This document shows positions 6,055 to 33,156 of a DNA stretch of 64,000 nt, piece by piece. The stretch comes from Frankia alni ACN14a (GTDB lineage Bacteria; Actinomycetota; Actinomycetes; Frankiales; Frankiaceae). The stretch covers positions 6,442,962 through 6,506,961 of the forward strand of contig NC_008278.1 in NCBI RefSeq assembly GCF_000058485.1, in the 5' to 3' direction. A program made the position numbers and the translations under genes. The notes under the pieces are model-generated. The model did no database searches. It had not been told where the DNA came from and worked only from the letters and a program-made list of their open reading frames with translations. The first letter of the stretch is position 1, and every line of letters begins with the position of its first letter.

Positions 6055-7335
6055 CTACCTTTCGGGGTCGAGGCGGGTGACCTGCGCCCCGGAACGGTCA
6101 ACGCTCAGCGGCGCGACCGAGAACTCGGCGCTCGCCGCGCCCACCGCCGCCGCGGCCTGCTCCCCGCCCACCGCGAGGGCCAACACGGACGGCCCGGAGC
6201 CGGACAGGGTCGCCGGCACCCCGAGGGCGCGCAGCCGGGCGACCAGCTCGCCGGTGGCCGGCGCGGCGGGCAGCCGGTAGGGCTGGTGCAGCAGGTCCTC
6301 GGTGGCGCTGAACAGCGTGCGGGCGCGCTGCGCCGCGGCCGCGGGCTCGGCGGCGGACATCGTCAGCGCCAGCAGCGCGGCCCGGCCGAGGGTCCGGGCG
6401 GCGTCGGGCAACCCGACGAGCACCGGCAGCGCACCCCGCGACGCCTCGGTGGACTGGCGCACGGTCGGCACGAAGACCACCGGCCGCAGCTCGGCGAAGG
6501 GGTCGACGCGCAGGCAGCGGGCCCCCTCGACGTCCTGCCAGGCGACGGTGAAGCCACCCGACAGCGCGGCGGCCACATTGTCCGGATGACCCTCGATGTC
6601 ATGCGCCAGGCGCAGCATCCACGCGGCTGCGGCGGGCACCGAGGTCGCGGGGCCGGCCGAGTCCCCGGGGCCGGGGCCGGCCGCGGCCGCCGGGCCGGCC
6701 GCGGTTGCGGTTGCGGCCCGGTCAGCAGGGACGCCGGGACGGGCTACGCCGGGGTCGCCCTGGTTCGCCGCGGGGCCGGCCTCGAACTCCGGGCCGAGAT
6801 CGGGCCGGTCGAGCGCCGCCGCCGCCACGATCCCCGCCACGATGGCGGCCGCCGACGAGCCGAGCCCGCGGCCGTGCGGGATCCGGTTCACGCAGCGCAG
6901 GGCGAGCCCCGGCTGCGGCCGGCCGAGCAGGTCGAACGTCGCCCGGATCGCCCGGACCACCAGATGCGTCTCGTCCTGGGCGACCTCGTCCGGGCCGACC
7001 ACGTCGACCGTCAGACCGGACGCGGTCATCTCCACGTCGACCTCGTCGTACAGCCCGAGGGCGAGGCCGAAGGCGTCGAACCCCGGGCCGAGGTTCGCGC
7101 TCGTCGCGGGAACCCGCACCCGGACCCGCCGGGCGGCGCCGTCGGCACCCGCCCGCCCGGCGCCGACCACCGGCACGCTCCTGTACTCGCCCCGCGCGTC
7201 GCGGTCACCCGCGCCCGAGAGGTCGCGGTCACCCGCGCCGGAGACACTGCGGACAGCCCCGCCCGGGTTGTCGCGGACAGCCCCGCCGGGGGCCGCCGTT
7301 TCGGCCCCCGGGACCGCGCCGGACAGGGCGGTCAC
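6055..7335 (-). CDS. thrB: Homoserine kinase
   Basis: ThrB phosphorylates homoserine for threonine synthesis (GHMP kinase superfamily). The GTG at 7335 overlaps the thrC stop (GTGA). The 426-residue protein is about 100 residues longer than the family norm. It has a low-complexity N-terminal extension of about 70 residues before the conserved [14 protein letters not shown], and an Ala/Gly/Pro-rich insertion of about 50 residues before the [11 protein letters not shown] substrate motif. The GHMP ATP-binding motif [14 protein letters not shown] and the C-terminal [11 protein letters not shown] motif are intact, so activity is expected. It is the last gene of the hom-thrC-thrB unit. Confidence 0.95.
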
Positions 7336-8549
7336 GAAGTCTGCAGCCCGAGCGCCTCGGCGGCGCCCGCGACGGTCGGCCGGATCGTCTCCGGCCGGGC
7401 CGCCCCGCTGATCGCCCAGTCGGGATCCTTCAACCCGTTGCCGGTCACGGTGCAGACGACGCGCTGGCCGGCCTCGATGCGACCGTCCGCCCGCGCCATC
7501 AGCAGCCCGGCGACGCTCGCCGCGCTGGACGGCTCGACGAAGACGCCCTCCCGGCGGGCGAGCAGCCGGTAGGCGGCGAGGATCTGCCGGTCGTTGACGG
7601 CGTCGATGAGGCCGCCGGAGGAGTCCCGCGCGTCGACGGCGAAGTCCCAGGAGGCGGGGTTGCCGATGCGGATCGCCGTGGCGATCGTCTGCGGGGAGGT
7701 GACGATCTCGCCGCGCACGATCGGGGCCGCGCCCGCCGCCTGGAAACCGCACATCCGCGGCCGGCCGGCGTCGAGGCGGGCGTCCTCCTCCAGGTACCCC
7801 CGCCAGTAGGCGGTGATGTTGCCGGCGTTGCCGACCGGCAGGCAGTGCACGTCCGGGGCCCGCCCGAGCGCCTCGACGATCTCGAACGACGCCGTCTTCT
7901 GGCCTTCCAGGCGGTACGGGTTCACCGAGTTGACCAGGGTGACCGGCGAGGTGTCGGCGAGTTCGCGGGCGACCCGCAGGCAGTCGTCGAACGAGCCGTC
8001 GAGCTGGAGCAGCCGGGCGCCGTGCACGAGCGCCTGGGCGAGCTTGCCCAGCGCGATCTTCCCGCTGGGGACGAGCACCGCGCAGGTGATGCCGGCACGG
8101 GCGGCGTAGGCGGCCGCCGAGGCCGAGGTGTTGCCCGTGGAGGCGCAGATGACCGCCTGGGAACCCGCGCCGACGGCCCGGCTGATGGCCATCGTCATCC
8201 CGCGGTCCTTGAACGAACCCGTCGGGTTCGCGCCCTCGACCTTGAGATGAACCTCACACCCGGTGAGCTCGGACAGGTGCTCGGCGAGCAGCAGCGGCGT
8301 GCCGCCCTCCCGCAGGGTGATCACCGGCGTGTCGTCGTCGACCGGCAGCCGGTCGCGGTACTCCTCGATGATCCCCCGCCACGGCCGGTGCGACCGGTCG
8401 GGCTGGGTGGATGCCGCCGGCGCCGCCGGCCCACCCGGGAACGACCCGGACTGCGCACGAGCGCTGGACTCGGCAGCAGTGCTGGACCCGGCAGCGGCGC
8501 TGGCTCCGACGGCGCTGGACTCCGCACGAGCTGTGGACGTCGTGGTCAC
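7332..8549 (-). CDS. thrC: Threonine synthase
   Basis: This PLP enzyme converts O-phosphohomoserine to threonine. The 405-residue protein has the PLP-lysine motif GSFKDRGMT (Lys114), [15 protein letters not shown] for phosphate binding, and the glycine-rich [12 protein letters not shown] loop. The GTG start at 8549 overlaps the hom stop and is preceded by a strong GGAGGTGAG. The first 50 residues are Ser/Ala-rich and unlike the family. It is coupled on both sides (hom upstream, thrB downstream). Confidence 0.96.
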
Positions 8550-9829
8550 GGCTCACCTCCCTCGACCCGCATCACGCCGGACACCGCCCGCACCCCGACG
8601 AGGCCGCGTAGCTCCTCGACGGTGGCCGACAGCGCCGCGTCGGGCGCGGCATGCGTCACCAGAACGAGGCTCGCGTCGTCGCCGCGGCCGTCCTGGCGGA
8701 CGCTCCTGATGGACACATCGTGACGCGCGAAGGCACCGGCGACCGTCGCGAGCACGCCGGTCTTGTCGGTGACGTCGAGATTCACGTGATACCTCGTCAC
8801 GGTACGGCCCATCGGCAGGACGGGCAGCGCCGCGTAGGACGACTCGCCGGGTCCGCGACGGCCCGCGATGCGGTTGCGCGCCACGGCGACCACGTCGCCG
8901 AGCACCGCCGACGCGGTCGGCGCCCCGCCCGCCCCCTGGCCGTAGAACATCAACTGCCCGGCGGCCTCCGCCTCGACGAACACGGCGTTGAACGCCTCCC
9001 GCACCCCGGCCAGCGGGTGGGTCCGCGGAATCATCGCGGGATGCACCCGGACGCTGATCCCGTCGGTCTCGACGCTGCGCTCGGCCACCGCGAGGGCCTT
9101 GACGGTGCAGCCCATCTCGCGCGCGCTCGCGATGTCGGCGGCGGTGACGTCGCCGATGCCGACCCGGTAGACGTCGTCGATGGTCACCGGCGAGTGGAAG
9201 GCGAGCTGAGCCATGATCGCAGCCTTCGCGGCGGCGTCGTAGCCGTCGATGTCGGCGGACGGATCGGCCTCGGCGTAGCCGAGCGCGCCGGCCTCGGCCA
9301 GTGCCTCGGCGAACGACGCGCCGGTCTCGTCCATCCGGGTCAGCACGAAGTTCGTCGTGCCGTTGACGATGCCGAGCACCCGGCGGACGCGGTCGCCGGC
9401 CAGGCTCTCGCGCAGCGGGCGGATCAGCGGGATCGCCCCACCGACCGCGGCCTCGTAGTACAGGTCGGTGCCGGCGGCCGCCGCCGCGTCGTGCAGCGCG
9501 GCGCCGTCGGAGGCGAGCAGCGCCTTGTTCGCGGTGACCACCGGTTTACCGGCCCGCAGGGCGGCCAGCAGCCAGTCCCGGGCCGGCTCGATCCCCCCGA
9601 CGACCTCGATGACGAGATCGACGTCGTCACGGGCGACGAGTCCGGCGGCGTCCGCGGTGAACAGGCTCGCGTCGATGTCGAGGTCACGGACCCGCTCCGG
9701 GCGGCGCACCCCGATCCCGACGAGCTCGAGCGGCTCGCCGACCCGGGCGGCGAGGTCACCGGCGTTGGCCCGCAGCAGCCGGACGATCTCACTGCCGACG
9801 ACCCCGCAGCCGAGCAGCGCGATCCTCAC
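8546..9829 (-). CDS. hom: Homoserine dehydrogenase
   Basis: Hom reduces aspartate semialdehyde to homoserine, the branch point to threonine and methionine. The frame starts at GTG 9829, overlapping the lysA stop. The 427-residue protein shows the NAD(P) motif GCGVVG near its N-terminus, [10 protein letters not shown], the catalytic-domain block [25 protein letters not shown] and a C-terminal ACT domain ([21 protein letters not shown]). The ACT domain implies feedback inhibition by threonine, as known for actinobacterial Hom. Confidence 0.96.
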
Positions 9830-11265
9830 GGTGCCACCGCCGCGCCGGCCTGGTCCGCCGGGTCGATGTCGAGGCGCAGCAGGTCCTCCTCGGTCTCCCG
9901 CCGCACGATCAGCCGGGCGGCGCCGTCGCGCACCGCGACGACCGGCGGGCGGGTGACATGGTTGTAGTTGCTGGCCATGGACCGGTGGTAGGCCCCGCTG
10001 GCCGGCACCGCGACGAGATCGCCGGGGCGCACGTCGTCGGGCAGCGGCACGTCGTGGGCGACGACGTCGCCGGACTCGCAGTGCCGGCCGACGAGCGTGA
10101 CCACGTGGGCCGCGGCCGAGCCCGCGCGGGAGACCAGCCGGGCGGTGTACCGGGCGTCGTAGAGGGCGGTGCGGATGTTGTCGCTCATCCCGCCGTCGAC
10201 GCTGACGAAGGTGCGCAGCCCGGGCAGTTCCTTGACCGTGCCGACCTCGTACAGGGTCACCGTCGTCGGGCCGACGACGGCCCGGCCCGGCTCCACGCCG
10301 AGGCGCGGGACGGCAAGCCCCGCCGCCGCGCACTCCTTGCCCACGACGGCGGTCAGCCGCTCGGCGACGTCGGCCACCTCCAGCGGGGCGTCCTCGCTGG
10401 TGTAGGCGATGCCGAGCCCACCGCCGAGGTCGAGCTCGGGCAGTTCGAGGTCGTGGGTGTCGCGGACGCGCGCCAGCAGGCCGACCATGCGGTGCGCGGC
10501 CAGGCCGAACCCGGCCGTGTCGAAGATCTGCGAGCCGATGTGCGCGTGCAGGCCGACGAGTTCCAGCGAGCCGGCGGCGAGCACCCGCTCCACCGCCTCG
10601 GCCGCCGCGCCGCCGGCGAGCGAGAAGCCGAACTTCTGGTCCTCCTGGCCGGTGGAGACGTAGCTGTGGGTGTGCGCCTCGACCCCCGGCGTGACCCGCA
10701 CGAGGACCCGCTGGCGCACCCCGGCCTCGGCGGCGACGGCGGCCAGGCGATCGATCTCGGCGAAGGAGTCGACGACGATCCGCCCGACGCCGTAGGCCAC
10801 CGCCGCCCGCAGCTCGGCGACCGACTTGTTGTTGCCGTGGAACAGCAGCCGCCCGGCCGGGAATCCGACCGAGCGGGCCACGGCGAGCTCCCCGCCGGTG
10901 CAGACGTCGAGGTTGAGCCCCTCCTCGTCCACCCAACGGGCGACCGCGCGGCACAGGAACGCCTTGCCGGCGTAGTAGACGTCGCAGTCGGAGAACGCGC
11001 GCCGCCAGGCGGCGCACCGGGCCCGGAAGTCGGCCTCGTCCAGGACGAACGCCGGGGTGCCGAACTCGGCGGCCAGCTCGTCCACCCGGACACCGCCGAC
11101 CCGCAGCACGCCGTCGCGGTCGAGCCGGGCCGTCGCCGGCCAGAGGTTCTCCTCCAGGGCCGCCGCCGACGAGCCTCCCGGCGTCGGGCCTCCCACCGTC
11201 AGGGCTCCCGCTGTCGGGGCTCCCGCTGCCGGTGCTCCCACCGCCGGGTTGTCGGTCTCGCTCAT
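9826..11265 (-). CDS. lysA: Diaminopimelate decarboxylase
   Basis: LysA decarboxylates meso-DAP to lysine (fold-type III PLP enzyme). The 479-residue protein has the PLP lysine in YYAGKAF (Lys101), the HAHIGSQ motif, ELDLGGGLGIAY, EPGRAVVG and the intersubunit active-site HCESGD. An extra N-terminal stretch of about 45 residues is Ala/Gly/Thr/Pro-rich with a GAP/TAG-like repeat. The ATG start overlaps nothing upstream; about 120 bp separate it from argS. Its stop overlaps hom. Confidence 0.96.
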   Translation of the reverse strand: MSETDNPAVGAPAAGAPTAGALTVGGPTPGGSSAAALEENLWPATARLDRDGVLRVGGVRVDELAAEFGTPAFVLDEADFRARCAAWRRAFSDCDVYYAGKAFLCRAVARWVDEEGLNLDVCTGGELAVARSVGFPAGRLLFHGNNKSVAELRAAVAYGVGRIVVDSFAEIDRLAAVAAEAGVRQRVLVRVTPGVEAHTHSYVSTGQEDQKFGFSLAGGAAAEAVERVLAAGSLELVGLHAHIGSQIFDTAGFGLAAHRMVGLLARVRDTHDLELPELDLGGGLGIAYTSEDAPLEVADVAERLTAVVGKECAAAGLAVPRLGVEPGRAVVGPTTVTLYEVGTVKELPGLRTFVSVDGGMSDNIRTALYDARYTARLVSRAGSAAAHVVTLVGRHCESGDVVAHDVPLPDDVRPGDLVAVPASGAYHRSMASNYNHVTRPPVVAVRDGAARLIVRRETEEDLLRLDIDPADQAGAAVAP

Positions 11266-21211: not shown

Positions 21212-22607
21212 CGTGGGAGCGGCCGGCCGGGAATCGCCCGACACGGTCGAACACCTCCCCGTGGCCGTGATCGGCGCCGGTCAGGCCGGGCTCGCGATGA
21301 GCTGGCATCTGACCGCCGACGGCGTCGACCACGCCGTCCTCGAACGCGACACCGCCCTGCACACCTGGTCCGACGCTCGCTGGGACAGCTTCTGCCTGGT
21401 CACGCCGAACTGGCAGTGCCGGCTGCCCGGCCACGCCTACGACGGGCCCGACCCGAACGGTTTCATGGTGAAGTCCGAGATCGTCGCCTGGCTCGACGGC
21501 TACCGCGCGAGCTTCGATCCGCCGGTCCGCGAGCACACCGCGGTGAACTCCCTGCGCCCGCTCGGCGACGGGCCCGGCGCCGCGGACCCGGCCGGCGGCT
21601 TCGCCGTGCGCACCACCGCCGGCGAGCTCGTCGCCGACCAGGTCGTCGTCGCCACCGGCGGCTACCACACCCCCGCGATCCCGCGGCTGGCCGAGCGGCT
21701 GCCGGCCGACCTGCACCAGGTGCACTCCGCGCGCTACCGGCGCCCCGCGGACCTGCCCGCCGGACCGGTGCTCGTCGTCGGCACCGGGCAGTCGGGCGCG
21801 CAGATCGCCGAGGACCTGCACCTCGCCGGCCGGCAGGTGCACCTCGCGGTCGGCTACGCGCCCCGGTTCGCCCGCCGCTACCGGGGCCGCGACGTCATCG
21901 CCTGGATGCACGACACCGGCCACTACGCCAGGCCCGTCACCGACAGGCCGGTCGAGGAGCGCAGCGCCGACCGCACCAACCACTACGTCACCGGTCGCGA
22001 CGGTGGGCGCGACATCGACCTGCGCGCCTTCGCCCGCCAGGGGATGGTGCTGCACGGCCGGTTGACGGGCGTCGACGCCGGCCGGTTCGCCTTCGCCGAC
22101 GACCTCGCCGCGAACCTCGACGCCGCCGACGAGGTCTACAACGGCATCAACGAGCTGATCGACGCCCACATCGCCGCCAACGGGCTCGACGTGGCGGTCG
22201 GCCCGAGTCGCTACACGCCGGTCTGGCAGCCCCCGAGTGCCACCGGGCCGGCCCTCGCCGTCACCGACGTGGCCGCCGTCGTCTGGGCGACCGGGTTCAC
22301 CCGCGACTACCGCTGGCTACACGCCGGGATCTTCGACGGCGCCGGGCATCCGCAGCACCGCCGCGGGGTGACCGCCGTGCCCGGGTTGTACCTGCTCGGC
22401 CTGCCGTGGCTGCACACCTGGGGGTCGGGCCGGTTCGCCGGCATCGCGCGGGACGCCGCCTACCTCGCCGAACAGGTCCGTGACCGCCGCGCGCGCCAGG
22501 TCCGCGCGCACCAGGTCCGCGCGGGCACGCTCGCCGGGCCGACGGCGGACGGCGCTCGGATGGTCGGGCAGACCTGGGGCGGCCCCTGGTCGCCGATCGG
22601 ACGATGA
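21198..22607 (+). CDS. nitH: Flavin-dependent oxidoreductase, MSMEG_0569 family (NitH)
   Basis: The 469-residue protein resembles FAD/NADPH monooxygenases. It has an N-terminal FAD motif [15 protein letters not shown], the family's [15 protein letters not shown] segment and a second Rossmann motif [15 protein letters not shown] for NADPH. GTG 21198 gives a 14-base overlap with nitC; the in-frame GTG at 21213, with GGGAG before it, is an equally good start. In other organisms NitH homologues help assimilate cyanide-derived nitriles. The tail after about residue 430 is Arg/Ala-rich. Its stop overlaps a 26-codon ORF. Confidence 0.87.
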
Positions 22608-22684
22608 GCGCGATCCGCGGAGAACGCCACCGCGAGCTGCACCACCGCGAGCTGCACCACCGCGCCGGCCGGGAGATCCGGTGA
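22604..22684 (+). CDS. Candidate 26-residue His/Arg-rich ORF
   Basis: ATGA overlap with the nitH stop starts a 26-codon frame whose peptide contains the duplicated segment RELHH. It ends in a GTGA within a duplicated ribosome-binding region (14-base repeat CGGGAGATCCGGTG at 22670-22683 and 22687-22700; the second copy ends in the start codon of the next gene). It occupies the spot where some clusters carry other small nit genes, but shows no similarity I can see to the MSMEG_0570 (NitG) family. It may be only a spacer made by local duplications. Confidence 0.25.
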   Translation: MSAIRGERHRELHHRELHHRAGREIR

Positions 22685-22697
22685 GACGGGAGATCCG

Positions 22698-23828
22698 GTG
22701 CGGGTCGCGCTGCTGACCTACTCCACGCGGCCCCGCGGCGGGGTCGTGCACACCCTGGCGCTGGCCGAGGCACTCGTCGACCTCGGCGCCGAGGTCGACG
22801 TGTGGACCTTGGCCCGCGGCGGCGACGGCGGCTTCTTCCGCGCCGTCGATCCCCGCGTCGGCGTGCGAGCGGTGCCCTTCGGGGAGGTGCCGGACGAGCC
22901 GGTGGGCCCGCGGATCCTGCGCTCGATCGCCGTCCTGGCCGCCGCCTTCGACGCCGCCGGCTACGACGCCGTGCACGCCCAGGACTGCATCAGCGCCAAC
23001 GCCGTGCTCGACGCCGCCGGTCCCCGCGGTCCCCGCGGGCCGGCCCACGCCATCCGCACGATCCACCACCTCGACGCGTTCACCACGCCGGAGCTCGCCG
23101 CCTGCCACGAACGCGCGGTCGTCGCCCCGCGGGCACACGTCTGCGTCTCCGCCGCCGTGGCCGCCGAGGTCGAGCGCGGCTGGGGAATCCGCCCGACGGT
23201 GATCCCGAACGGCGTCGACGCCGCCCGCTTCGCCGCCGCCGCGGGCGACGGCGCCGCCCGGCGGGCCTGGGCGGACCGGCTCGGTCCCTACGTCCTGGCC
23301 GTCGGCGGCATCGAACCGCGCAAGGGCACCGCCGACCTGGTCGAGGCGATGGCGCTGGTCCGCCGGGCCCGCCCGGAGCTGGCCCTGGTCGTGGGCGGCG
23401 GCGAGACGCTGTTCGACTACCGCGGCTACCGCGAGGCGGTGCTGGCACGTGCGACGGAGCTGGAGGTGACGCCGCTGATCCTCGGCCCGGTCGACCACGG
23501 CGCGCTGCCGGCACTGGTCGCGCAGGCGGCGGCGTTCGCGTTCCCGTCGACGAAGGAGGGGTTCGGGCTGGCCGCCCTGGAGGCGCTCGCCGCCGGGGTG
23601 CCGGTCGTGGCCCGGAACCTGCCGGTGCTGCGCGAGGTCCTGGGACCGGCGGTGCGCTACGCGAGCACCCCGGACGAACTGGGCGACGCGCTGCTCGCCG
23701 CCGCCGGCGCCCGCGACCCGGCGGCGACCGAACGCGGCCGGACCCTGGCCACCGGCTACACCTGGGCCGGCGCCGCCAGCGCCCACCTGACTCTGTACGC
23801 CCGGCTCATCGGCGCGAGCGCCGGCTGA
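22698..23828 (+). CDS. Glycosyltransferase, MSMEG_0565 family (GT4-like)
   Basis: The 376-residue protein has a GT-B fold: N-terminal RPRGGVVHTLALAEAL (sugar acceptor side) and C-terminal GGIEPRKGTADLVEAM and STKEGFGLAALEALAAGVPVV, the donor nucleotide-binding EGFGL-type motif of GT4. The MSMEG_0565 family of glycosyltransferases is the usual last gene of nitrilase clusters in actinobacteria. It suggests that the pathway makes or processes a glycosylated metabolite, not only ammonia from nitriles. The GTG start follows CGGGAGATCC. Confidence 0.88.
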   Translation: MRVALLTYSTRPRGGVVHTLALAEALVDLGAEVDVWTLARGGDGGFFRAVDPRVGVRAVPFGEVPDEPVGPRILRSIAVLAAAFDAAGYDAVHAQDCISANAVLDAAGPRGPRGPAHAIRTIHHLDAFTTPELAACHERAVVAPRAHVCVSAAVAAEVERGWGIRPTVIPNGVDAARFAAAAGDGAARRAWADRLGPYVLAVGGIEPRKGTADLVEAMALVRRARPELALVVGGGETLFDYRGYREAVLARATELEVTPLILGPVDHGALPALVAQAAAFAFPSTKEGFGLAALEALAAGVPVVARNLPVLREVLGPAVRYASTPDELGDALLAAAGARDPAATERGRTLATGYTWAGAASAHLTLYARLIGASAG

Positions 23829-23862
23829 GCGGCACGGGCAGCCGGACGCGGCACCTCGGCAG

Positions 23863-23902
23863 GCGGCGAGGCGGCGAGGCGGCGAGGCGGCGAGGCGGCG
23901 GG
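23863..23902. repeat. 8-bp tandem repeat downstream of the nit cluster
   Basis: The unit GCGGCGAG is repeated four times plus one variant, in the 166-bp gap between the glycosyltransferase and the convergent DUF2231 gene. No coding role is apparent. Confidence 0.85.
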
Positions 23903-23994
23903 CGGCAGGCGAGGCACGTGGCCCTGTTGACGCCGGCACGGCGAGTGCTGACGGACCGGCGTGGGCTGACGGCCTGGCGAGGTGTCGCGCAGGT

Positions 23995-24567
23995 TCAGCC
24001 GTGTTCGCCAGGTCCGGGGTTCGGACTGAAGCTGTCGTGCCAGACGGCCTTCGCCCCGCTGTCACCGATCCGGTAGATCTGCACCACCGAGCCGACCGCG
24101 ACAACCACGCTCAGGACCGCGAGCACGATCATCACGGCCAGCCCACCGGGGCGGGCGGCCGCGTGCGTCCCGCCGTCGGCGGTCCCGCCGAGCTCGCTGC
24201 GCCGACCCCACAACCAGACCGCCGCCGCCAGGACGAACAACCCGATCGCCCACGGCAGCAGGCCGTCGCCCAGCTCGGCGTGCCGGCGGACCAACGCATC
24301 CGGAGGGACCCGAGCCTCGAGCCATTCCCCGGCATGGGTGGTCAGCGGCACACTCACGACCGCGACCAGGGCCACCAACGGCGTGAGCACACCGAGCCGG
24401 CGCCGGGCGGCGGGCCAGACGGCCGACAGCACGACCAGCAGCGCGGTGAGCGGCACGAGCACGACGACGACATGCACGAGCAGCGCATGCGCCGGCAGGC
24501 CACTGATCTGCGTTGGTCCCACCGTGACTCCGATCAGGGCCGGCACCGCACATGGGCGGCGACACAC
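23995..24567 (-). CDS. DUF2231 family membrane protein
   Basis: The 190-residue protein has four membrane segments (about 27-48, 58-74, 102-121, 142-165) and the DUF2231 pattern ISGLPAHALLVHVVVVLVPLTAL, in which a conserved His sits in the first helix, followed by THAGEWLE. The family's function is unknown; some members neighbour heme or copper redox genes. It starts at ATG 24567, or at an inner GTG near MTVGPTQIS. It is transcribed divergently from a BlaI-type regulator, with BlaI-like operators between, so it may be under the same control. Confidence 0.82.
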   Translation of the reverse strand: MCRRPCAVPALIGVTVGPTQISGLPAHALLVHVVVVLVPLTALLVVLSAVWPAARRRLGVLTPLVALVAVVSVPLTTHAGEWLEARVPPDALVRRHAELGDGLLPWAIGLFVLAAAVWLWGRRSELGGTADGGTHAAARPGGLAVMIVLAVLSVVVAVGSVVQIYRIGDSGAKAVWHDSFSPNPGPGEHG

Positions 24568-24579
24568 ATAATCTATTCA

Positions 24580-24608
24580 TGTAGTACTACAGAAATAGTA
24601 GCACTACC
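24580..24608. promoter_or_regulatory. BlaI/MecI-type operators in a divergent promoter
   Basis: TGTAGTACTACA at 24580-24591 is a perfect 12-bp palindrome matching the TACTACA/TGTAGTA half-sites bound by BlaI, MecI and CopY repressors. A second, imperfect site (TAGTAGCACTAC) follows at 24597-24608, and a further GTCGTAGTC at about 24612. The stretch is AT-rich (TAATCTAT at 24569-24576) and lies between two divergent starts, one of which encodes a BlaI homologue. This points to autoregulation. Confidence 0.72.
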
Positions 24609-24639
24609 GTTGTCGTAGTCGGCGGCTAGACTTCCGGCC

Positions 24640-25080
24640 ATGCGTGACAGGGGGCCCGGGCGGCGGGTGGCCGGCGAGCTGGAGTCCGCCGTCCTCGCCG
24701 TGCTGTGGGAGGCCGGCGGGCCGCTCACCCCGAGCCAGACCCAGGAGGCCCTGGTCCGGGACGGCCACGAACTCGCCTACACGAGCGTGGCGACGACGCT
24801 CGCCCGGCTGCACGGCAAGGGCATGCTGGAACGGACAGTCGCCGGCCGTGGTCACGCCTACACCCCGACGGCGGCGGCGGCCCGGCAGCTCGCCGATCGG
24901 ATGCGCGGGCTGCTCGGGGACGGCCGCGGCCGGACCGAGGTCCTCAGCCACTTCGTCGCCGGGCTCACGGCCGACGATGAGGCCACCCTCCTCGCCTTGC
25001 TGGCCGCCGCCGAGGATGAACCCCCGACCGGCGGTGGCCCGCCGCCCGCCGCCGGCGAGCCACCGGGCGCGCGATCATGA
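24640..25080 (+). CDS. BlaI/MecI/CopY family transcriptional repressor
   Basis: The 146-residue protein has the winged-helix BlaI fold: GELESAVLAVLWEAGGPLTPSQTQEAL, then the recognition helix region AYTSVATTLARLHGKGMLER and the wing GRGHAYTP. The C-terminal dimerisation part (VLSHFVAGLTADDEATLLALL) follows, then a Pro/Gly tail. Repressors of this class leave DNA when cleaved by a partner M56 peptidase. The next gene is such a peptidase, and matching operators lie just upstream. Few bases separate the promoter from the ATG. Confidence 0.93.
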   Translation: MRDRGPGRRVAGELESAVLAVLWEAGGPLTPSQTQEALVRDGHELAYTSVATTLARLHGKGMLERTVAGRGHAYTPTAAAARQLADRMRGLLGDGRGRTEVLSHFVAGLTADDEATLLALLAAAEDEPPTGGGPPPAAGEPPGARS

Positions 25081-25159
25081 GTAGGACTTCGGCGGGGTCG
25101 CCGAGTCCCGGCCGGCCGTCCGCGCGGCAGGCCGGGCTGATGAGTCACCGGGGGCACCG

Positions 25160-26092
25160 GTGAGGTACATGGTCTGGGTTCCCCTGGTCGTCAACGTCAT
25201 CGTCGCGGTGTGCGCACCGGCCCTCGCCCGACGGCTGCCCTACCGGGTGAAGCCGGCGGCGCTTACCACCGGCGCCGTGCTCGCGGCGGCGGGCTGGGTG
25301 TCGTCCCTGACACTGCTGGCGGCCAGCTTCGCCGATCGGGTGCCGGCTCTCGCGCACCGGCTCGGCGCGACCGTCAGGGCACCGCAGGCCGAGCTTCCGC
25401 CGTCACTCGCGGGCGCGACGGCCGTTCTGGCCGTCGGTGCCGCCGCCGGCATGCTGCTGACCGCGGCCGCTCGGATCGGCCGGGACCTGATCAGGGCGGA
25501 GCGGCTGGTCCGCCGGCTGCCGCCCGGTCGGGTCCATGTCCTCCCGCAGCGCCGGCCCGACGCCTGTGCGGTCGGTGGCGTCACCGGGGGACGGGTCGTC
25601 ATCACCGCGGGCATGCTCGACTGCCTGGACAGCGCCGAGCGGGAGGCCGTGCTCGCCCACGAGCACGCCCACCTCACCGGTGGACATCACTGGCTGCGGA
25701 TGGTCGTCGCCTGCTGCGCGGCGGTGGACCCGCTGCTCAGACACCTGCCCGGTCTCGTCGAGAGCGCCTGCGAGCGGTGGGCGGACGAGCACGCGGCCCG
25801 CGCGACTGGGCAGCGGCGCGTCCTCGCGCAGGCGCTCGGGAAGGTCTCGCTGGCGACGCTGCGGGAGACCCAGGGGCACCGACCGGGCGACGCGGGAGTA
25901 TCCCGGTCAACGCCCACCACGTGCGGCTTCGACCACAGCGGCGTCACGGAAAGGATGGTGGCACTCCTCGACGGGTCAGCCAGCGCCACCCGGGTGCCCG
26001 CGACGGTCCTGCTGGCGACCAGCGCGCTCACGGCGATCATGATTGGTTCCGCGGTGCACGCCAGCACGGACTACCTCGCGCTGCTCCGCTAG
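25160..26092 (+). CDS. M56 family (BlaR1/MecR1-like) membrane metallopeptidase
   Basis: The 310-residue protein has N-terminal membrane segments (about 4-24, 35-56, 84-104), the zinc site HEHAH (about 166-170, in VLAHEHAHLTGGHHW) with a downstream acidic ligand in CERWADEHAA, and a C-terminal membrane segment (about 282-302). It has no penicillin-binding sensor domain, so it is the short actinobacterial form. With the upstream BlaI gene it should form a sense-and-cleave pair; the signal is unknown. GTG 25160 is the start. Confidence 0.9.
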   Translation: MRYMVWVPLVVNVIVAVCAPALARRLPYRVKPAALTTGAVLAAAGWVSSLTLLAASFADRVPALAHRLGATVRAPQAELPPSLAGATAVLAVGAAAGMLLTAAARIGRDLIRAERLVRRLPPGRVHVLPQRRPDACAVGGVTGGRVVITAGMLDCLDSAEREAVLAHEHAHLTGGHHWLRMVVACCAAVDPLLRHLPGLVESACERWADEHAARATGQRRVLAQALGKVSLATLRETQGHRPGDAGVSRSTPTTCGFDHSGVTERMVALLDGSASATRVPATVLLATSALTAIMIGSAVHASTDYLALLR

Positions 26093-26204
26093 CCCGCCTC
26101 ATCATCCCGGTCGCCGTGCGGGAGGCGTCGAGCACCGGTCGCGCGCAGGCTTGAGGGGCGTAGCCACACGACCGGGTACGGGGGCGCGCCGGAGAGGCGG
26201 AGCG

Positions 26205-27080
26205 ATGACGGTCAGGACCGGACGGTTCGGGGTGTGCACGGGCCAGCACCAGTGGCCGGCAGAGGCGAGTGAGCGGGCGGAGATCGCGGGCGAGCTGGAG
26301 GACCTGGGATTCGGAGCGATCTGGTTCGGCAATGCCGCGGGCGATCTGGACCTGCCGGCGCAGATCCTCACGGCGACGTCGCGGATCACGGCGGCGACCA
26401 GCATCATCAACGCCTGGACCGAGCCGGCCGAGCTCGTCGCGCGCCGCCGCGTCGCGATCGTCAGGGATCATCCGGACCGGCTGCTGCTCGGCATCGGCGC
26501 CGGGCACAAGGAGTCCGTCGAGCCTCGGACCGGACGCCGCTACGAACGTCCCTACCAGGCCGTCGTCGACTACCTGGACCGACTCGACAAGGCGATCCCG
26601 CCGGTGCCGCCCGCCGAACGGGCGCTCGCCGCCCTCGGCCCGCGCCTGCTCGGCCTCGCCCGCGAGCGCACCGCCGGGGCCGTGCCATACCTGGTCACCC
26701 CGGCGCACACCCGGCAGGCCCGGGAGATCCTCGGCGACGGCCCGCTGCTGGCCCCCGGCCAGATGGTCCTGCTGGAATCCGACCCGACGGCCGCGCGGGG
26801 CGCTGCCCGAGCCGCGCTAGCCGTCTACCTGAGGCGGGTCAACTACACCCGCAACCTGCTACGCATCGGCTTCACCGCGGACGACCTCGCCGACGGCGGC
26901 AGCGACCGTCTCGTCGACGGGCTGGTGGCCTGGGGCGACCCGGCGACCGTGGTCGACCGCCTGACAGAGCATCATCAGGCCGGCGCCGACCACGTCAGCA
27001 TCCACCTGATCACTGCTGGCGGGACGCCGCCCCTGGCGCAGTGGCGCAGGCTGGCCGCGGCCCTGTCGCCGCCCGGCTAG
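26205..27080 (+). CDS. LLM-class F420-dependent oxidoreductase
   Basis: The 291-residue protein is luciferase-like: N-terminal RFGVCTG, ELEDLGFGAIWFGN, the strand TSRITAATSIINAW and the family block RDHPDRLLLGIGAGH, with a C-terminal GDPATVVDRLTEHHQAGADHVSIHLI. Actinobacterial members usually use F420 or FMN to oxidise or reduce small molecules; the substrate is not evident. An in-frame extension exists upstream, but ATG 26205 has GGAGAGG 4-10 bases before it. Confidence 0.87.
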   Translation: MTVRTGRFGVCTGQHQWPAEASERAEIAGELEDLGFGAIWFGNAAGDLDLPAQILTATSRITAATSIINAWTEPAELVARRRVAIVRDHPDRLLLGIGAGHKESVEPRTGRRYERPYQAVVDYLDRLDKAIPPVPPAERALAALGPRLLGLARERTAGAVPYLVTPAHTRQAREILGDGPLLAPGQMVLLESDPTAARGAARAALAVYLRRVNYTRNLLRIGFTADDLADGGSDRLVDGLVAWGDPATVVDRLTEHHQAGADHVSIHLITAGGTPPLAQWRRLAAALSPPG

Positions 27081-27082
27081 CC

Positions 27083-27604
27083 TCAGTGCCGTTCAGTCCC
27101 GGCGGGAACCGGGCTGCCCGCCGATCTCGCCACGGCCGGAGTCCCCCGACCGGTCGATGCCACCGGTTCGGTTGCGCCGGAGCGGGCCGCGGGGGGCGGC
27201 GCGGGCCGCGGCGCCTCGGCCGGTTCCGGGCGCGGCCGACCGCCGCCGGGGACCGTCTCCCGCAGCGTCCGGTAGACCTCGTCGAACTCGCGGACCGCCC
27301 GCACGGAGCGGTACCCGCCGAGCCGGCGGGCCAGCATGCGCAGGCGTTCGGCGGTGCGCGCGGAGTTCACCCGGGCGTCGAGCCGGGCGGCGCGGACGGC
27401 ACGCTCGCAGGCCTGCTCGACGTCGCCCCGCTGCAGGTGGGCCTCGGCGAACCACGTCTCGTACAGCGAGATCTCCCGGGCGCGCAGCGGGTCGTAGCCG
27501 GTCAGGCCGTGGCGCAGCCGATCCTCGGCCCGGTCGGGGCGGCGCAGCTCGGTCCAGCACCGGCCGGCCATGACGTCGATCTCGCGGGCGTCCAGCCAGG
27601 GGCG
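27083..27604 (-). pseudogene. C-terminal remnant of a TPR-type transcriptional regulator
   Basis: The frame reads W-L-D-A-R-E-I-D at about 27600-27575 and continues with TPR-like helices (DRAEDRLRHGLTGYDPLRAREISLYETWFAEAHLQRGDVEQACERAV) and a Pro-rich tail. This resembles the last third of the large actinobacterial XRE-TPR regulators. The DNA-binding N-terminus is missing: upstream of about 27605 the frame runs antisense through the GGDEF gene. An ATG at 27571 could still start a 162-residue fragment. It looks truncated by a rearrangement. Confidence 0.6.
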
Positions 27605-29507
27605 AGTGTGGTGGCTGCTGGGCGCCGGGCTGGTGAGCTTCGCCCTGGCCGACTCGCTGCTGCTCGTGATCGTCACCGCCGGGCACACGCCGTCGAACGG
27701 GGTGCTGTCCAGCCTGTGGCTGCTGTCGGTGCTGATGCCGGCGCTGGCGTCCTGGCTGCGCCCGCGCTGGCAGCCGCCGGCGAAGATGTCCGGGTGGGGC
27801 GTGATCGCCGTGCCGCTGGTGCTGGCGACGGTCGCGCTGGGCCTGCTGGTGCTCGGCGCCGCGATCGACCTGCCGGCGGTCACCGTGGCACTCGCGGCGG
27901 CGACGGTGCTCTCCGCCCTGGCCCGCGCGGCCTTCACCTTCATCGAGGTCCAGCAGCTCGCGGAGAGCCGGGTGCTGGCCCGCACCGACGACCTCACCGG
28001 CCTGGCCAACCGCCGCGGCTTCATCGAGCGGCTGACCCGGGCCGAGCAGCACACCACCGGGCCGGACACCTTCGCCCTGCTGCTGCTCGACCTCGACCGG
28101 TTCAAGGAGATCAACGACTCGCTCGGCCACCAGGTCGGGGACGCGCTGCTGACCCAGGTCGGCACCCGGATCTCCGACGCCCTGCGCCCGGGCGACCTGC
28201 ACGCCCGCCTCGGCGGCGACGAGTTCGCGGTGCTGCTCGAACACGCCGACGCCGACGCCGCCCGCCGGGTCGCCGACCGGGTGCTGACCGTGCTGGCCGA
28301 TCCCTTCGACGTCGGAGGTGTGACGCTGCACGTGGGCGCGAGCATAGGGGCGGCCGTCTACCCGGACCACGCCCAGGACGCGCACACCCTGCTGCAGCGC
28401 GCCGACGTGGCGATGTACGCGGCGAAGTCGGGCCGCACCGGCGTGGAGTCCTACCGGCCGGGCGCCGACGTGAACAGCCTCGTCCGACTCGACCTGATCG
28501 AGTCCCTGCGGGCCGCCCTCGGCACCGGCCAGCTGGAGGTGCACTACCAGGTCAAGGTCGATCTCGGCTCCGGACGGATGGACGCGGTCGAGGCCCTCGT
28601 CCGCTGGCGGCACCCGACCAGGGGCCTGCTCGGCCCGGAGGAGTTCGTCCCGCTGGCCGAGCAGGCGGGGTTCATGCGGATGCTCACGATCGAGGTGCTC
28701 CACACCGCTCTCGACCAGTGTCGACGTTGGCACGCCGCCGGCCTCGAGGTCGCCGTGGCCGTCAACCTGTCCGCCTCCGACCTGCTCGATCGGGGCTTTC
28801 CCGCGCAGGTCAGCGGGATGCTCGCCGGTTTCGGCCTGAGCCCGGCGGCGCTGGAGCTGGAGATCACCGAGACGACGCTCATGCTCGACCGGGTACGGTC
28901 GGCCACCGTGCTCGGGGAGCTGCGGGCGCTGGGCGTCGGCATCGCCGTCGACGACTACGGCACCGGCTACTCGTCGCTGGCGCGGCTGCTCGAACTGCCG
29001 GTGAACGTGCTCAAGCTCGACAAGTCGTTCATCCAGCGGGTGGCGGACGACAGCCGGGCCGAGGCGATCGTGCGGTCCACCGTGAGCCTGGCCCACGCCC
29101 TCGACCTGCGGATCGTCGTCGAGGGGGTGGAGACCGCGGCGGCGGTGCGGATGCTGCGCGATGTCGGCTGCGACCTCGCCCAGGGCTACTTCCTCGGCGA
29201 ACCCGGCCCGTCCGAGCTGGTTACCGAACAACTCCGGCAGGCCGCGGCGACGGCTGGCACGATCGACCTGGAGACCGCGACGCGGGAGCCGGTCGGGCTC
29301 GCGACGCCCCGCGAGGCGAACGCCCGCGAGACGAGCGCACGGGAGACGAGCGCACGGGAGACGAGCGCCCGGGAGGCGACCCGCGATCCCGCGGCCGACC
29401 GCGGGGCTCGCCGCACCGGCGGCCGCGCCCCGACGAGGGAGGGTGGCGTGCGCAACACACCGGTGGCCCCCGGACCGACGACGCCGGCAGGCAGCCCGTG
29501 GCGGTGA
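27570..29507 (+). CDS. GGDEF-EAL membrane protein (cyclic-di-GMP turnover), probably 5'-truncated
   Basis: The 645-residue protein has membrane segments (about 11-30, 43-58, 73-110), a GGDEF domain with intact LGGDEFAVLLE (about 213-223) and an EAL domain with VEALVRW (about 340), DDYGTGYSSLARL and LKLDKSFI, so both cyclase and phosphodiesterase motifs are canonical. The protein seems to begin in the middle of a membrane sensor region: residue 11 is already inside a helix and the usual leading helices are absent. The tail carries a (A)RETS repeat. Its stop overlaps aat. Confidence 0.85.
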   Translation: MTSISRASSQGRVWWLLGAGLVSFALADSLLLVIVTAGHTPSNGVLSSLWLLSVLMPALASWLRPRWQPPAKMSGWGVIAVPLVLATVALGLLVLGAAIDLPAVTVALAAATVLSALARAAFTFIEVQQLAESRVLARTDDLTGLANRRGFIERLTRAEQHTTGPDTFALLLLDLDRFKEINDSLGHQVGDALLTQVGTRISDALRPGDLHARLGGDEFAVLLEHADADAARRVADRVLTVLADPFDVGGVTLHVGASIGAAVYPDHAQDAHTLLQRADVAMYAAKSGRTGVESYRPGADVNSLVRLDLIESLRAALGTGQLEVHYQVKVDLGSGRMDAVEALVRWRHPTRGLLGPEEFVPLAEQAGFMRMLTIEVLHTALDQCRRWHAAGLEVAVAVNLSASDLLDRGFPAQVSGMLAGFGLSPAALELEITETTLMLDRVRSATVLGELRALGVGIAVDDYGTGYSSLARLLELPVNVLKLDKSFIQRVADDSRAEAIVRSTVSLAHALDLRIVVEGVETAAAVRMLRDVGCDLAQGYFLGEPGPSELVTEQLRQAAATAGTIDLETATREPVGLATPREANARETSARETSARETSAREATRDPAADRGARRTGGRAPTREGGVRNTPVAPGPTTPAGSPWR

Positions 29508-30370
29508 CCGCGGCGCCCCGCCCGGTGGGTCCCACCGTGTGGGACGGCTTCTCGCTGCTGCGCAGTCCCGGGCGGGCACCGGTCGCGGTCGGGGGCACGC
29601 TGGACCCGGCGACGCTCGTCGGCGCCTACCGGGCGGGGGCGTTCCCGTGGCCCACCGGCGACGAACCGGAGGGCGCAGCGGGCGCCGAGGGTACGGGGGC
29701 CGCCGAGGTCGCCGAGGTCGGCGAGCCGGCGCCGGCCGGCGCGGGTGGCCTGCGCGCGCTGTTGCGGGCCGCCGTCGCCGCCCGCCGGGTGCGGCATCTG
29801 TCCCCCGGCCGCCCCGGCGGCTACGACCTGCCCTGGTGGAGCCCCGATCCGCGAGCGGTGATCCCGGCCGGCGGGGTCCGGGTGAACCGGTCGCTGCGCA
29901 AGCGGCTGCGCAACTGCGGGTGGACGACGACCGTCGACGAGTCCTTCGTCGAGGTGGTCCGCGGCTGCCAGCGCGACGGCACGTCGGGCTGGATCACCGA
30001 CGAGCTGATCGACGGCTACGCGCGTCTGCACGCCCTGGGCTGGGCGCACAGCCTCGAGGTCTGGGACGGCGACGACCTCGTCGGCGGCGTCTACGGGGTC
30101 GGGGTCGGCGGCGTGTTCGCGGGCGAGTCGATGTTCCACGCCCGCACCGACGCCTCGAAGGTCGCCCTCGCCGACTTCGACGCGCGGTTCACCGCCGCCG
30201 GGGGCGTGCTGCTCGACGTCCAGATGACGACGGACCACCTCGTCGACCTCGGCGCGCTGGAGATCCCCCGGGCCGACTACCTCGCGGTGCTGGCGCGGGT
30301 GCGCGACGCCGACGTCCGGCTCGACCGCGACCGGCGGCCGGTCGCCCGCCTCGCGCCGCCCGCGGGCTGA
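29504..30370 (+). CDS. aat: Leucyl/phenylalanyl-tRNA--protein transferase
   Basis: Aat adds Leu or Phe to proteins with basic N-termini, marking them for ClpAP-type degradation. The 288-residue frame contains the family pattern: YRAGAFPWP, LPWWSPDPRAVIP, LRKRLRNCGW, GCQRDGTSGWI, YARLHALGWAHSLEVWD, GGVYGVGVGGVFAGESMFHA and LLDVQMTTDHLVDLGA. A Glu/Gly/Ala insertion (about 45-80) splits AFPWP from the next motif. GTG 29504 gives a GTGA overlap with the GGDEF stop; GTG 29498 is an alternative. Confidence 0.95.
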   Translation: MTAAPRPVGPTVWDGFSLLRSPGRAPVAVGGTLDPATLVGAYRAGAFPWPTGDEPEGAAGAEGTGAAEVAEVGEPAPAGAGGLRALLRAAVAARRVRHLSPGRPGGYDLPWWSPDPRAVIPAGGVRVNRSLRKRLRNCGWTTTVDESFVEVVRGCQRDGTSGWITDELIDGYARLHALGWAHSLEVWDGDDLVGGVYGVGVGGVFAGESMFHARTDASKVALADFDARFTAAGGVLLDVQMTTDHLVDLGALEIPRADYLAVLARVRDADVRLDRDRRPVARLAPPAG

Positions 30371-30398
30371 CCGGCCGCCGTCGCCGCCTGCCGGCGGC

Positions 30399-31712
30399 TC
30401 AGCCGGGATCGGGCGGGTCGCTCGCCGCCACCAACGGGAAGCGGTCGCCGGCCTCGGCGAGGACGGCGAGAAGATGATCTATCTCGTCGTCGGTGTTCGC
30501 GGCGGTGATCTGCACCCGCACCCCGACCTGGTCGCGGGGGACGACGGGGAAGGGCACCACCGACGCGAAGACCCCCCGCTCGTACAGGAACCGGCCCAGC
30601 GGGTCGGCGTTGTCCGCGTCCCGCAGCGGGATCTCGACGATCGGGAATCCGCTGGTGTTCAGCGTGCCCACGCCCAGCCCGCGCAGACCGTCGAGAAACC
30701 GACTGGTCAGCCGGTACAACCGGGCCCGCAGCGCCTCGCCTCGTTGCTCGTTGACCCGCAGGCCGACCAGGCCGGTCGCCAGTGACGCGACCGGCGACGG
30801 ACCGGAGAAGATGTACGGCCCGGCCGCGGACTTCAGGTACTCCTTCACCTCGGTCGGGCAGGCGACGAACGCGAGCAGCGACGAGTACGCCTTGGAGAAC
30901 CCGCCGACGAGCACCAGGTTGTCGTAGCCGGCGCCGAGATGGCGCACGATGCCGTTGCCGCGGCTGCCGTACGGGCTCGACTCGTCGGGGCCGCGCTGCC
31001 CGACGACCCCGAAACCGTGCGCGTCGTCCACGTAGACCAGCGCGTCGTGGGCCCGCGCGAGCGGGAGGAGCTCGTCGAGCGGCGGCCCGTTGCCCGTCAT
31101 GCTGTGCACCCCGTCGACGCAGATCACCCGGGGGTGGGGCGCGGCGCGCAACAGCCGGTCCAGCCGGTCGAGCCGGTCCTCGCGGAACCGCGCCACGGTC
31201 CCGCCACGACTGGCGACCATCGCGGCCCCGTCGTGGGCGGTCTGGTGGGCGTGGAGCTCGACGAACAGCGCGCCCCGGCCGACCAGCGCCGGCAGCACGG
31301 AATGCTGGATATGGGTGATGGTCGGCAGCAGCAGCGCATCCTGCGCGCCGAGCAGCTCCGCCAGCGTGCGCTCGATGTCGTCGTAGGGCCGCGGGCTGGC
31401 AATCAACCGCGACCAGCTCGGATGCGTGCCCCACAGGTCCAGGTACGCCGGAACCGCCTCGATGATCTCCCGATCGAGATCAAGCCCCAGATAGTTACAG
31501 GAGGCGAAATCGGTGAGCCAGTGATCGCCGATCCGTATCCGGCGACCGTCGATCTCGTCGACCGTCGCGTCGTAAAAGGGCGCCTGCCGGCGCATGCGGT
31601 CGAGTTCCGTGCGGATACCCAGCGGACGGTCGAGTACGTGCCGCCAGGCCGGCGAGAATGCACTCTGCGCAGGTGGCAGGGGTCGACCCAGGGTTTCAAA
31701 GGTCTGGGACAT
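30399..31712 (-). CDS. 8-amino-7-oxononanoate synthase-like PLP enzyme (alpha-oxoamine synthase family)
   Basis: The 437-residue protein is an alpha-oxoamine synthase-type PLP enzyme: NYLGLDLDREIIEA, WSRLIASPRPYDDIERTLAELLGA, VDGVHSMTGNGPPLDELL, VDDAHGFGVVGQRG and the Schiff-base lysine in VGGFSKAYSS. Such enzymes condense an amino acid with an acyl-CoA or acyl-ACP (BioF, KBL, CqsA, Spt). No biotin genes are nearby, so a specialised-metabolite or lipid role is possible. The ATG at 31712 is chosen; an upstream in-frame extension has no family match. Confidence 0.85.
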   Translation of the reverse strand: MSQTFETLGRPLPPAQSAFSPAWRHVLDRPLGIRTELDRMRRQAPFYDATVDEIDGRRIRIGDHWLTDFASCNYLGLDLDREIIEAVPAYLDLWGTHPSWSRLIASPRPYDDIERTLAELLGAQDALLLPTITHIQHSVLPALVGRGALFVELHAHQTAHDGAAMVASRGGTVARFREDRLDRLDRLLRAAPHPRVICVDGVHSMTGNGPPLDELLPLARAHDALVYVDDAHGFGVVGQRGPDESSPYGSRGNGIVRHLGAGYDNLVLVGGFSKAYSSLLAFVACPTEVKEYLKSAAGPYIFSGPSPVASLATGLVGLRVNEQRGEALRARLYRLTSRFLDGLRGLGVGTLNTSGFPIVEIPLRDADNADPLGRFLYERGVFASVVPFPVVPRDQVGVRVQITAANTDDEIDHLLAVLAEAGDRFPLVAASDPPDPG

Positions 31713-32154
31713 CCCGGCCGCTACCTGGCCGGACGAGGGCTTGCGGGGATCACGCGACCTGGCCTGACGATCGCGGATAGCACAGAATTTCGCGGGGATC
31801 CGAGTTTTTGGAAATTCATCGGATCCGACGTGGTGGTCGGGCGCGCCACTACCATCACCCATCCTTGGGTTCACCGGGAACGCACGTCGCCGGGTCAGGG
31901 AACGAGGAGAAACCAACGGAACCAAGGGAACGTTGAGCAAGTAAACGATAAACCTCCCGACCCGCCGATTCCACACATCGCGCGCGAGCTGGGCAAACGC
32001 ATAGCGAGACGCTCCGTCCACCGCACCCGACGCCCGCGCGGCGATACACCGGGGACGGCGCATCTCACCTCGCGCGACCGCCGCCCGCGAGGCACCGACC
32101 GGCCCTCGCCCGGGGCCGGCGGACCCCCGTGGCCGGAGTGTTATCGTCCCCGCC
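31713..32154. promoter_or_regulatory. Divergent intergenic region (442 bp), AT-richer than its surroundings
   Basis: No gene is seen here. The part at about 31780-31990 is clearly less GC-rich than the rest (TTTTTGGAAATTCATC, GTAAACGATAAACC). It includes two GGATCCGA/GGATCCGA-type direct repeats at 31796 and 31820 around the AT run. It should hold promoters for both flanking genes, but no confident -10/-35 pair could be chosen. Confidence 0.4.
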
Positions 32155-33156
32155 ATGTCTGACACGGCGGCATCCGCGGCGACCTCCGCCGAGCCCACGA
32201 CAGCGACAGCGGGGCCCTCCTCGTCGGACGCGGCGCGGTCCGCGGCCCTCCCGGCGAAGGAGGCGACCCCGGCGAAGGGGGCGACCCCGGCGAAGGGGGC
32301 GACCCCGCCGACCCAGGCGGCACCGGCCCGGCAGGCGGCCCCGATCCAGCCGGCGGCACCGGCCCAGCAGGCGGCCGCGGGCAGCGCCGCGGACAGCCCG
32401 GACGGCGAGGCGCCCCTCGTGCGCACCCTGCCGTACTCCGGCTGGGGCCTCGGCCGGTCGAAGACCCTCTTCCTCGCCCACCGCAAGGAGCCCGTCGACC
32501 CGGCGGGGTTCTACTCGCTCATCGCCGCCGACTCGGTGCGCCAGCTCATGCGGTACACCTCGCTGACCGGCCAGCTCGTGCTGGACGTCGGCGGCGGCCC
32601 GGGCTACTTCCGCTCGGCCTTCCTCGACGCCGGCGCCCGCTACGTATGGGTCGAGCCGGACGTCTCGGAGATGGAGGCCGGCGGCATCGAGGTCCCTGGC
32701 CGGGTCCGGGGCAGCGCGCTGGACCTGCCGTTCCTGTCCGGCAGCGTCGACCTGTGCTACACGTCCAACGTCCTGGAGCACGTCCCCGACCCGTGGCGGA
32801 TGTGCTCGGAGCTGGTCCGGGTCACCCGCCCCGGCGGACTGATCTTCCTCAGCTACACCAACTGGCTGTCGCCGTGGGGCGGCCACGAGACGGCACCGTG
32901 GCACTACCTCGGCGGTGACCGGGCGGCAGCCCGCTTCGAGCGCCGCAAGGGTCAGGCACCGAAGAACATCTACGGCCGGACGCTGTTCCCGGTGTCGGTC
33001 GCCGACACGCTGTCCTGGGCCCGCCGCCGCGCCGACGTCGACATCCTCGACGCGATGCCGCGCTACCTGCCGGACTGGGCGAAGGTGATCCTCAAGGTGC
33101 CCGGCGCCCGCGAGATCGTCACCTGGAACCTCGCGATGGTGCTCCGCAAGCGCTGA
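32155..33156 (+). CDS. Class I SAM-dependent methyltransferase
   Basis: The 333-residue protein starts with about 90 residues of Ala/Pro/Thr-rich, probably disordered sequence containing KGATPA repeats. A Methyltransf_11-type domain follows, with motif I LVLDVGGGPGYFRSA (about 141-155), motif II YVWVEPDVSEME and NVLEHVPDPWRM. The C-terminal half (APWHYLGGDRAAARFERRKG, LPDWAKVILKVPGAREIVTWN) is shared by actinobacterial methyltransferases near cell-envelope glycan loci. The substrate is unknown. Confidence 0.87.
   Translation: MSDTAASAATSAEPTTATAGPSSSDAARSAALPAKEATPAKGATPAKGATPPTQAAPARQAAPIQPAAPAQQAAAGSAADSPDGEAPLVRTLPYSGWGLGRSKTLFLAHRKEPVDPAGFYSLIAADSVRQLMRYTSLTGQLVLDVGGGPGYFRSAFLDAGARYVWVEPDVSEMEAGGIEVPGRVRGSALDLPFLSGSVDLCYTSNVLEHVPDPWRMCSELVRVTRPGGLIFLSYTNWLSPWGGHETAPWHYLGGDRAAARFERRKGQAPKNIYGRTLFPVSVADTLSWARRRADVDILDAMPRYLPDWAKVILKVPGAREIVTWNLAMVLRKR

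Follow-up and report, generated by a model that had tools for sequence, protein, structure and literature searches.

A deletion in Frankia alni ACN14a joining the remnants of two divergent genes, an NsdA-family regulator and a membrane GGDEF-EAL protein

Frankia alni is a nitrogen-fixing soil bacterium, and strain ACN14a is a reference strain for Alnus-nodulating Frankia. In the 64,000-nucleotide stretch of its genome analysed here (the window), two divergent genes are cut short at a single junction, and comparison with relatives leaves us nearly certain that a deletion in ACN14a produced it. A single event in the ACN14a lineage, probably illegitimate recombination of the end-joining type as judged from its edges, would have joined an NsdA-family regulator, at approximately codon 451, to a divergently oriented membrane GGDEF-EAL gene, at approximately codon 198. 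The 5′ end of each gene would have gone, together with all the DNA in between, in which lay an LLM-class oxidoreductase gene or its decayed remains. The event is ordinary and its junction is well defined (Table 1). Both remnants are most likely young pseudogenes, and the full explanation, a deletion that left two pseudogenes, is one that we consider probable.

Table 1. Features around the junction, in window coordinates.
Feature	Position	Strand	Basis
Different LLM-class F420 oxidoreductase (TIGR03620)	26205..27080	+	family score; start chosen by motif
3′ remnant of NsdA-family regulator	27083..27598	-	tblastn; profile scores
First in-frame start of surviving GGDEF-EAL ORF, ATG	27570..27572	+	anti-SD pairing
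Deletion junction	27599..27599	.	blastn edges, edge alignments, genus scan
Membrane GGDEF-EAL remnant	27600..29507	+	domain scores, tblastn, motif/hydropathy scan, structure model
aat (leucyl/phenylalanyl-tRNA-protein transferase)	29498..30370	+	TIGR00667, 168.4 bits vs cut-off 143.55

The junction is placed by the points at which homology to relatives stops. When window positions 22001-33000 were compared by blastn with 11 regions from 10 same-genus genomes, the minus-strand regulator homology had its edge at 27599 in all nine regions holding the regulator, and the plus-strand GGDEF-EAL homology had its edge at 27595-27600 in all ten regions holding that gene. A preliminary description of this DNA had put the end of regulator homology near 27600 and had expected both genes to extend further; the blastn edges agree with the former, and the latter is borne out by QA3 (G003), where the open frames encode 826 aa (GGDEF-EAL) and 621 aa (regulator). 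We also scanned 13 genomes of the genus, including ACN14a (G000), with a 401-bp query that had the junction at its centre. It matched ACN14a unbroken from 1 to 401, and a contiguous junction was found in none of the 12 others. The GGDEF side of the query is present in all 12, starting at query 197-202, and the regulator side in 11, ending at query 201 (= 27599); F. casuarinae CcI3 (G010) is without it. The two sides lie divergently on one contig in eight genomes, separated by 2.7-3.8 kb: 3,778 bp in G003, 3,565 in G008, 3,495 in F. torreyi CpI1 (G011), approximately 3,326 in G002, 3,199 in G005, 3,183 in G009, 2,862 in G004 and 2,678 in G007 (the values for G011, G002, G005 and G009 are arithmetic from genus-scan positions). 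In G001, G006 and G012 they are on separate contigs. Judged from CpI1 and QA3, the loss comes to about 3.5-3.8 kb. A MAG labelled Frankia alni (L068) has a GGDEF-EAL protein merely 50% identical and is therefore uninformative on the species. The proposal that a deletion took both N-termini is thus supported: the junction is absent from all 12 relatives, and full-length homologues exist among them.

What was lost can be read from QA3, where the order is GGDEF-EAL (L056, 6274-3794, minus strand), LLM oxidoreductase (6842-7726, plus) and regulator (8114-9979, plus); CcI3 has the same gene order with a shortened regulator. Relative to QA3, ACN14a has lost the F420-dependent LLM oxidoreductase gene entirely, along with residues 1-197 of the GGDEF-EAL protein and residues 1-450 of the 621-residue regulator. 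The lost oxidoreductase is an LLM-class F420-dependent member of TIGR03560 (319.4 bits for the QA3 gene against a cut-off of 231.4). At this locus G003 and G010 have the gene complete, G011, G002 and G009 have fragments of it, and it was not found in the G004, G005, G007 and G008 regions; a genus search (E 1e-60) gave full-length matches (>80%) in G003 and G010 only. Since several relatives have it in fragments or gave no match, the gene may already have decayed in the ancestor of ACN14a. One earlier claim fails here: the two truncated genes were thought to have shared one promoter region, but in QA3 and CcI3 a complete LLM gene lies between them. There the LLM gene is the divergent neighbour of GGDEF-EAL and the regulator follows in tandem behind it, so the two genes have no common promoter in these strains. 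As to the form of the fragments, the LLM gene of CpI1 (L057, 6294-6925) is in pieces in differing frames, with similar fragments in G009.

The regulator remnant matches residues 451-617 of the QA3 protein by tblastn, and its frame is still open. The QA3 orthologue scores 247.1 bits against NF053720 (NsdA-family TPR-like; cut-off 75); the remnant scores 82.9 bits but covers just positions 324-431 of the 432 in the model, its last quarter. Unlike NsdA-family regulators, the ACN14a copy has no residues 1-450, and the N-terminal helix-turn-helix region, which lies in the deleted part, is not retained (an HTH_31-like region at residues 14-79 of the QA3 regulator, 20.5 bits, below the cut-off of 27). 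The remnant is presumably dead. It is one of 12 places over the NF053720 cut-off in the ACN14a genome, leaving 11 others. A Streptomyces rimosus member of the family is reported to be a negative regulator of rimocidin biosynthesis (PMC12243394). Three further observations concern the regulator. First, there is a second indel at window 27097-27099: QA3 has approximately 376 bp (L056, 9964-10338) between the LLM and regulator 3′ ends that the window does not have, and the last few regulator codons differ between the two. Second, the deletion has left a 420-aa open frame on the minus strand (27083-28345) made up of GGDEF-EAL antisense and the regulator remnant; this chimeric frame could be annotated by a gene caller, and it has no Pfam match. 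Third, the CcI3 regulator (L061, 5203-5598) has an apparent independent internal deletion, with approximately residue 84 joined in frame to the C-terminal region.

The GGDEF-EAL remnant matches the QA3 protein from residue 198 onward. Window 27570-29504 scores 223.3 bits for EAL (Pfam PF00563, cut-off 31.3) and 156.5 bits for GGDEF (PF00990, cut-off 23.8), and a pattern scan with a general list of GGDEF/EAL catalytic motifs found RPGD-x5-GGDEF, EALVR, NLSA, EITE, DDYGTG, KLD and EGVE. With the GGDEF motif and its RxxD site present together with the EAL-type motifs, the catalytic motifs are intact as had been proposed, the QG site aside, whose pattern matched just a wrong place. In its Pfam matches, its motifs and the polytopic membrane N-terminus of its relatives the protein is like membrane-anchored GGDEF-EAL proteins (c-di-GMP turnover); it differs from them in that six of its ten predicted helices, counted from the N-terminus, are gone, along with the original start and the DNA upstream of it. 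A hydropathy scan gave nine helices in QA3 and four in the window. Modelled with AlphaFold2 (A1, 10 sequences; mean pLDDT 71.8, pTM 0.39), the F. torreyi orthologue has ten N-terminal helices. A loop separates the end of the sixth (193) from the start of the seventh (199), and the cut at 197/198 is accordingly predicted to fall in it (residue numbers were mapped onto the model by our own arithmetic). The surviving frame had been described as beginning at 27570 inside a mid-protein membrane helix: the called ATG is indeed at 27570 on the plus strand, but the break is placed by the model in the loop before the seventh helix. Because an even number of helices is retained, the catalytic domains could have kept a cytosolic position. 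Among the relatives, the gene is unbroken from residue 1 in G001, G002, G003, G004, G007, G008, G009, G010, G011 and G012, and in two pieces around an extra stretch in G005. In G006 (a draft, 85% complete; L028, 1904-2094) the alignment is split in two and shifts frame near residue 63 (frames by our own arithmetic), which could reflect either a lesion or a mistake in the assembly. Two of the 12 relatives may thus carry other GGDEF-EAL lesions, and none carries the ACN14a cut. The gene of Candidatus Frankia meridionalis (L082, 6001-8752) is interrupted by an insert, across which the frame changes, and it too looks broken.

Retained motifs, a cut between helices 6 and 7 and an even number of remaining helices all favour a reading in which the deletion is real and the truncated protein could still work as a c-di-GMP enzyme, having lost most of its membrane sensor half and being expressed by upstream read-through from ATG 27570, GTG 27606 or a later start. 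We regard this as unlikely, and the start codons are one reason. ATG 27570 sits in what was the antisense of the regulator, in a frame open from a stop at 27495, and the next in-frame start is GTG 27606. Anti-Shine-Dalgarno pairing is -2.9 at ATG 27570, -5.7 at GTG 27606, -5.3 at ATG 27735, -7.0 at GTG 27801 and -8.9 at GTG 27810, against a background mean of -4.2 (10th percentile -7.8) and -9.9 at the called QA3 start. The two nearest starts therefore have weak ribosome-binding sites, which argues against a working remnant. GTG 27810 has a fair site, so a shorter product is possible; a start there drops two more helices and leaves approximately two. In the regulator, the change that made ATG 27570 is a synonymous one. 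Eight of nine relatives compared have ATC, and the ninth (G005), which is uncut at the junction, also has ATG. This again tells against a working remnant, and on the same grounds the selected gain of a new start was rejected.

Codon constraint, estimated as omega with our own codon-model script on six taxa and a topology assumed from distances, bears on the same question. For the GGDEF-EAL remnant, omega is 0.042 on the ACN14a branch and 0.077 elsewhere (LR 3.2, p 0.07), the unique codons on that branch comprise 3 nonsynonymous and 17 synonymous ones, and fixing its omega at 1 costs 46 log units; the aat values are 0.045 and 0.069. Constraint this strong would favour a protein that still works. 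However, omega for the regulator remnant is also low, 0.12 on the ACN14a branch vs 0.19 elsewhere (0.10 vs 0.18 under a second topology), with an interpolated upper bound of approximately 0.33 under the first topology, so that low omega is mostly a mark of the time before the deletion. The low value in the regulator suggests that the deletion is recent, in which case conserved codons are no proof of function; purifying selection was rejected as such proof, since the regulator remnant has no relaxation either. If that remnant has been free to drift since the deletion, a rough linear mixture would put the event within approximately the last fifth of the branch or less. With its start and ribosome-binding site lost, together with the region upstream, the GGDEF-EAL remnant is in our view probably a young pseudogene or a poorly made protein.

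The effects of the deletion probably extend to aat. The aat frame opens with a GTG at 29498, inside the GGDEF-EAL gene, whose stop codon lies at 29505-29507; this overlap, of 10 bp in the window, is seen directly there and in QA3, and the same start context occurs in eight of 12 relatives (G003, G004, G005, G007, G008, G010, G011 and G012); by script, the start motif fell elsewhere in G002 and G009 and was not found in G013 and G017. Given the overlap, the two genes are probably one operon. With the deletion aat may have lost its upstream promoter, and it would now depend on either read-through or a promoter of its own inside the operon. The TIGR03620 gene, the closest on the plus strand upstream of the GGDEF-EAL remnant, is a possible source of read-through. 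A scan for promoters and terminators returned zero of each, and with chance expectations of 0.1 and 0.3, respectively, it does not discriminate. In blastn against the fetched regions the TIGR03620 gene aligns in the G003 region only. The 3′ flank (window 24640-27080) is variable: a BlaI/M56-peptidase stretch aligns in the G011, G002, G009, G012 and G004 regions and not in G003. A more far-reaching reading is that the deletion went beyond decay: by a cut at a helix boundary it released a membrane-bound c-di-GMP enzyme from the sensor half, put the enzyme and aat under read-through and removed an NsdA-like regulator, changing c-di-GMP or developmental control in a strain-specific way; we think this decidedly improbable.

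As for mechanism, the microhomology at the edges is 1 bp, G27599, common to both. Within 150 bp of the QA3 edges no same-strand word of at least 10 is common to the two, and the longest common word is one 9-mer at offsets that do not match. Direct-repeat homologous recombination was rejected on the 1-bp microhomology and the absence of an edge repeat in QA3, and repeat- or IS-mediated deletion on the word search, which covered the same strand only. There is no transposase among eight proteins scanned around the locus. Transposases are reported to be few in ACN14a, at 33 ORFs (PMC2770080). A Ku gene is present in the ACN14a genome, so end joining is possible, and one common base without a repeat suggests an event of that type. 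Very short microhomology, no repeat and gene remnants on both sides are also what is generally known of ordinary illegitimate-recombination deletions, and the ACN14a case differs from ordinary gene-inactivating deletions just in the genes hit.

Movement of the missing DNA within the genome was rejected. The QA3 interval (L056, 5400-9700) has 17 matches in all in ACN14a: its flanks abut (6470323-6470560 and 6470560-6470844), and the others are one 72% stretch, an LLM paralogue with 64% protein identity, and 14 short matches of at most 53.6 bits each. Regulator residues 1-450 have five partial matches in the rest of the genome at 28-50% identity. The rest of the ACN14a genome yielded paralogous or weak matches and no orthologue of the missing DNA. 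This also bears on the reading that the ACN14a sequence contains an artefact of assembly or cloning, which is very improbable: the genome is a single contig, 99.87% complete, the edges have no repeat able to collapse, and the missing DNA is not placed elsewhere. That the short forms are ancestral and the relatives gained the extra DNA is hardly credible, since nothing was found to support it, the homologue search and genus scan contradict it, GGDEF-EAL homologues in further genera of this family (L018, L019, L021) have the same N-terminal half, and such a gain would require two genes to acquire, at a single point, N-terminal halves that are conserved and in frame.

In the part of the Frankia literature covered by our search, we found no published description of the ACN14a deletion. 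The locus decays elsewhere too: the CcI3 regulator has an apparent internal deletion, and in several relatives the LLM gene is in fragments or was not found. In the reference strain, the deletion disrupts a c-di-GMP gene together with one regulator of the NsdA family and may strip aat of its promoter, and results obtained in ACN14a on GGDEF-EAL, the regulator or aat may therefore misrepresent the genus.
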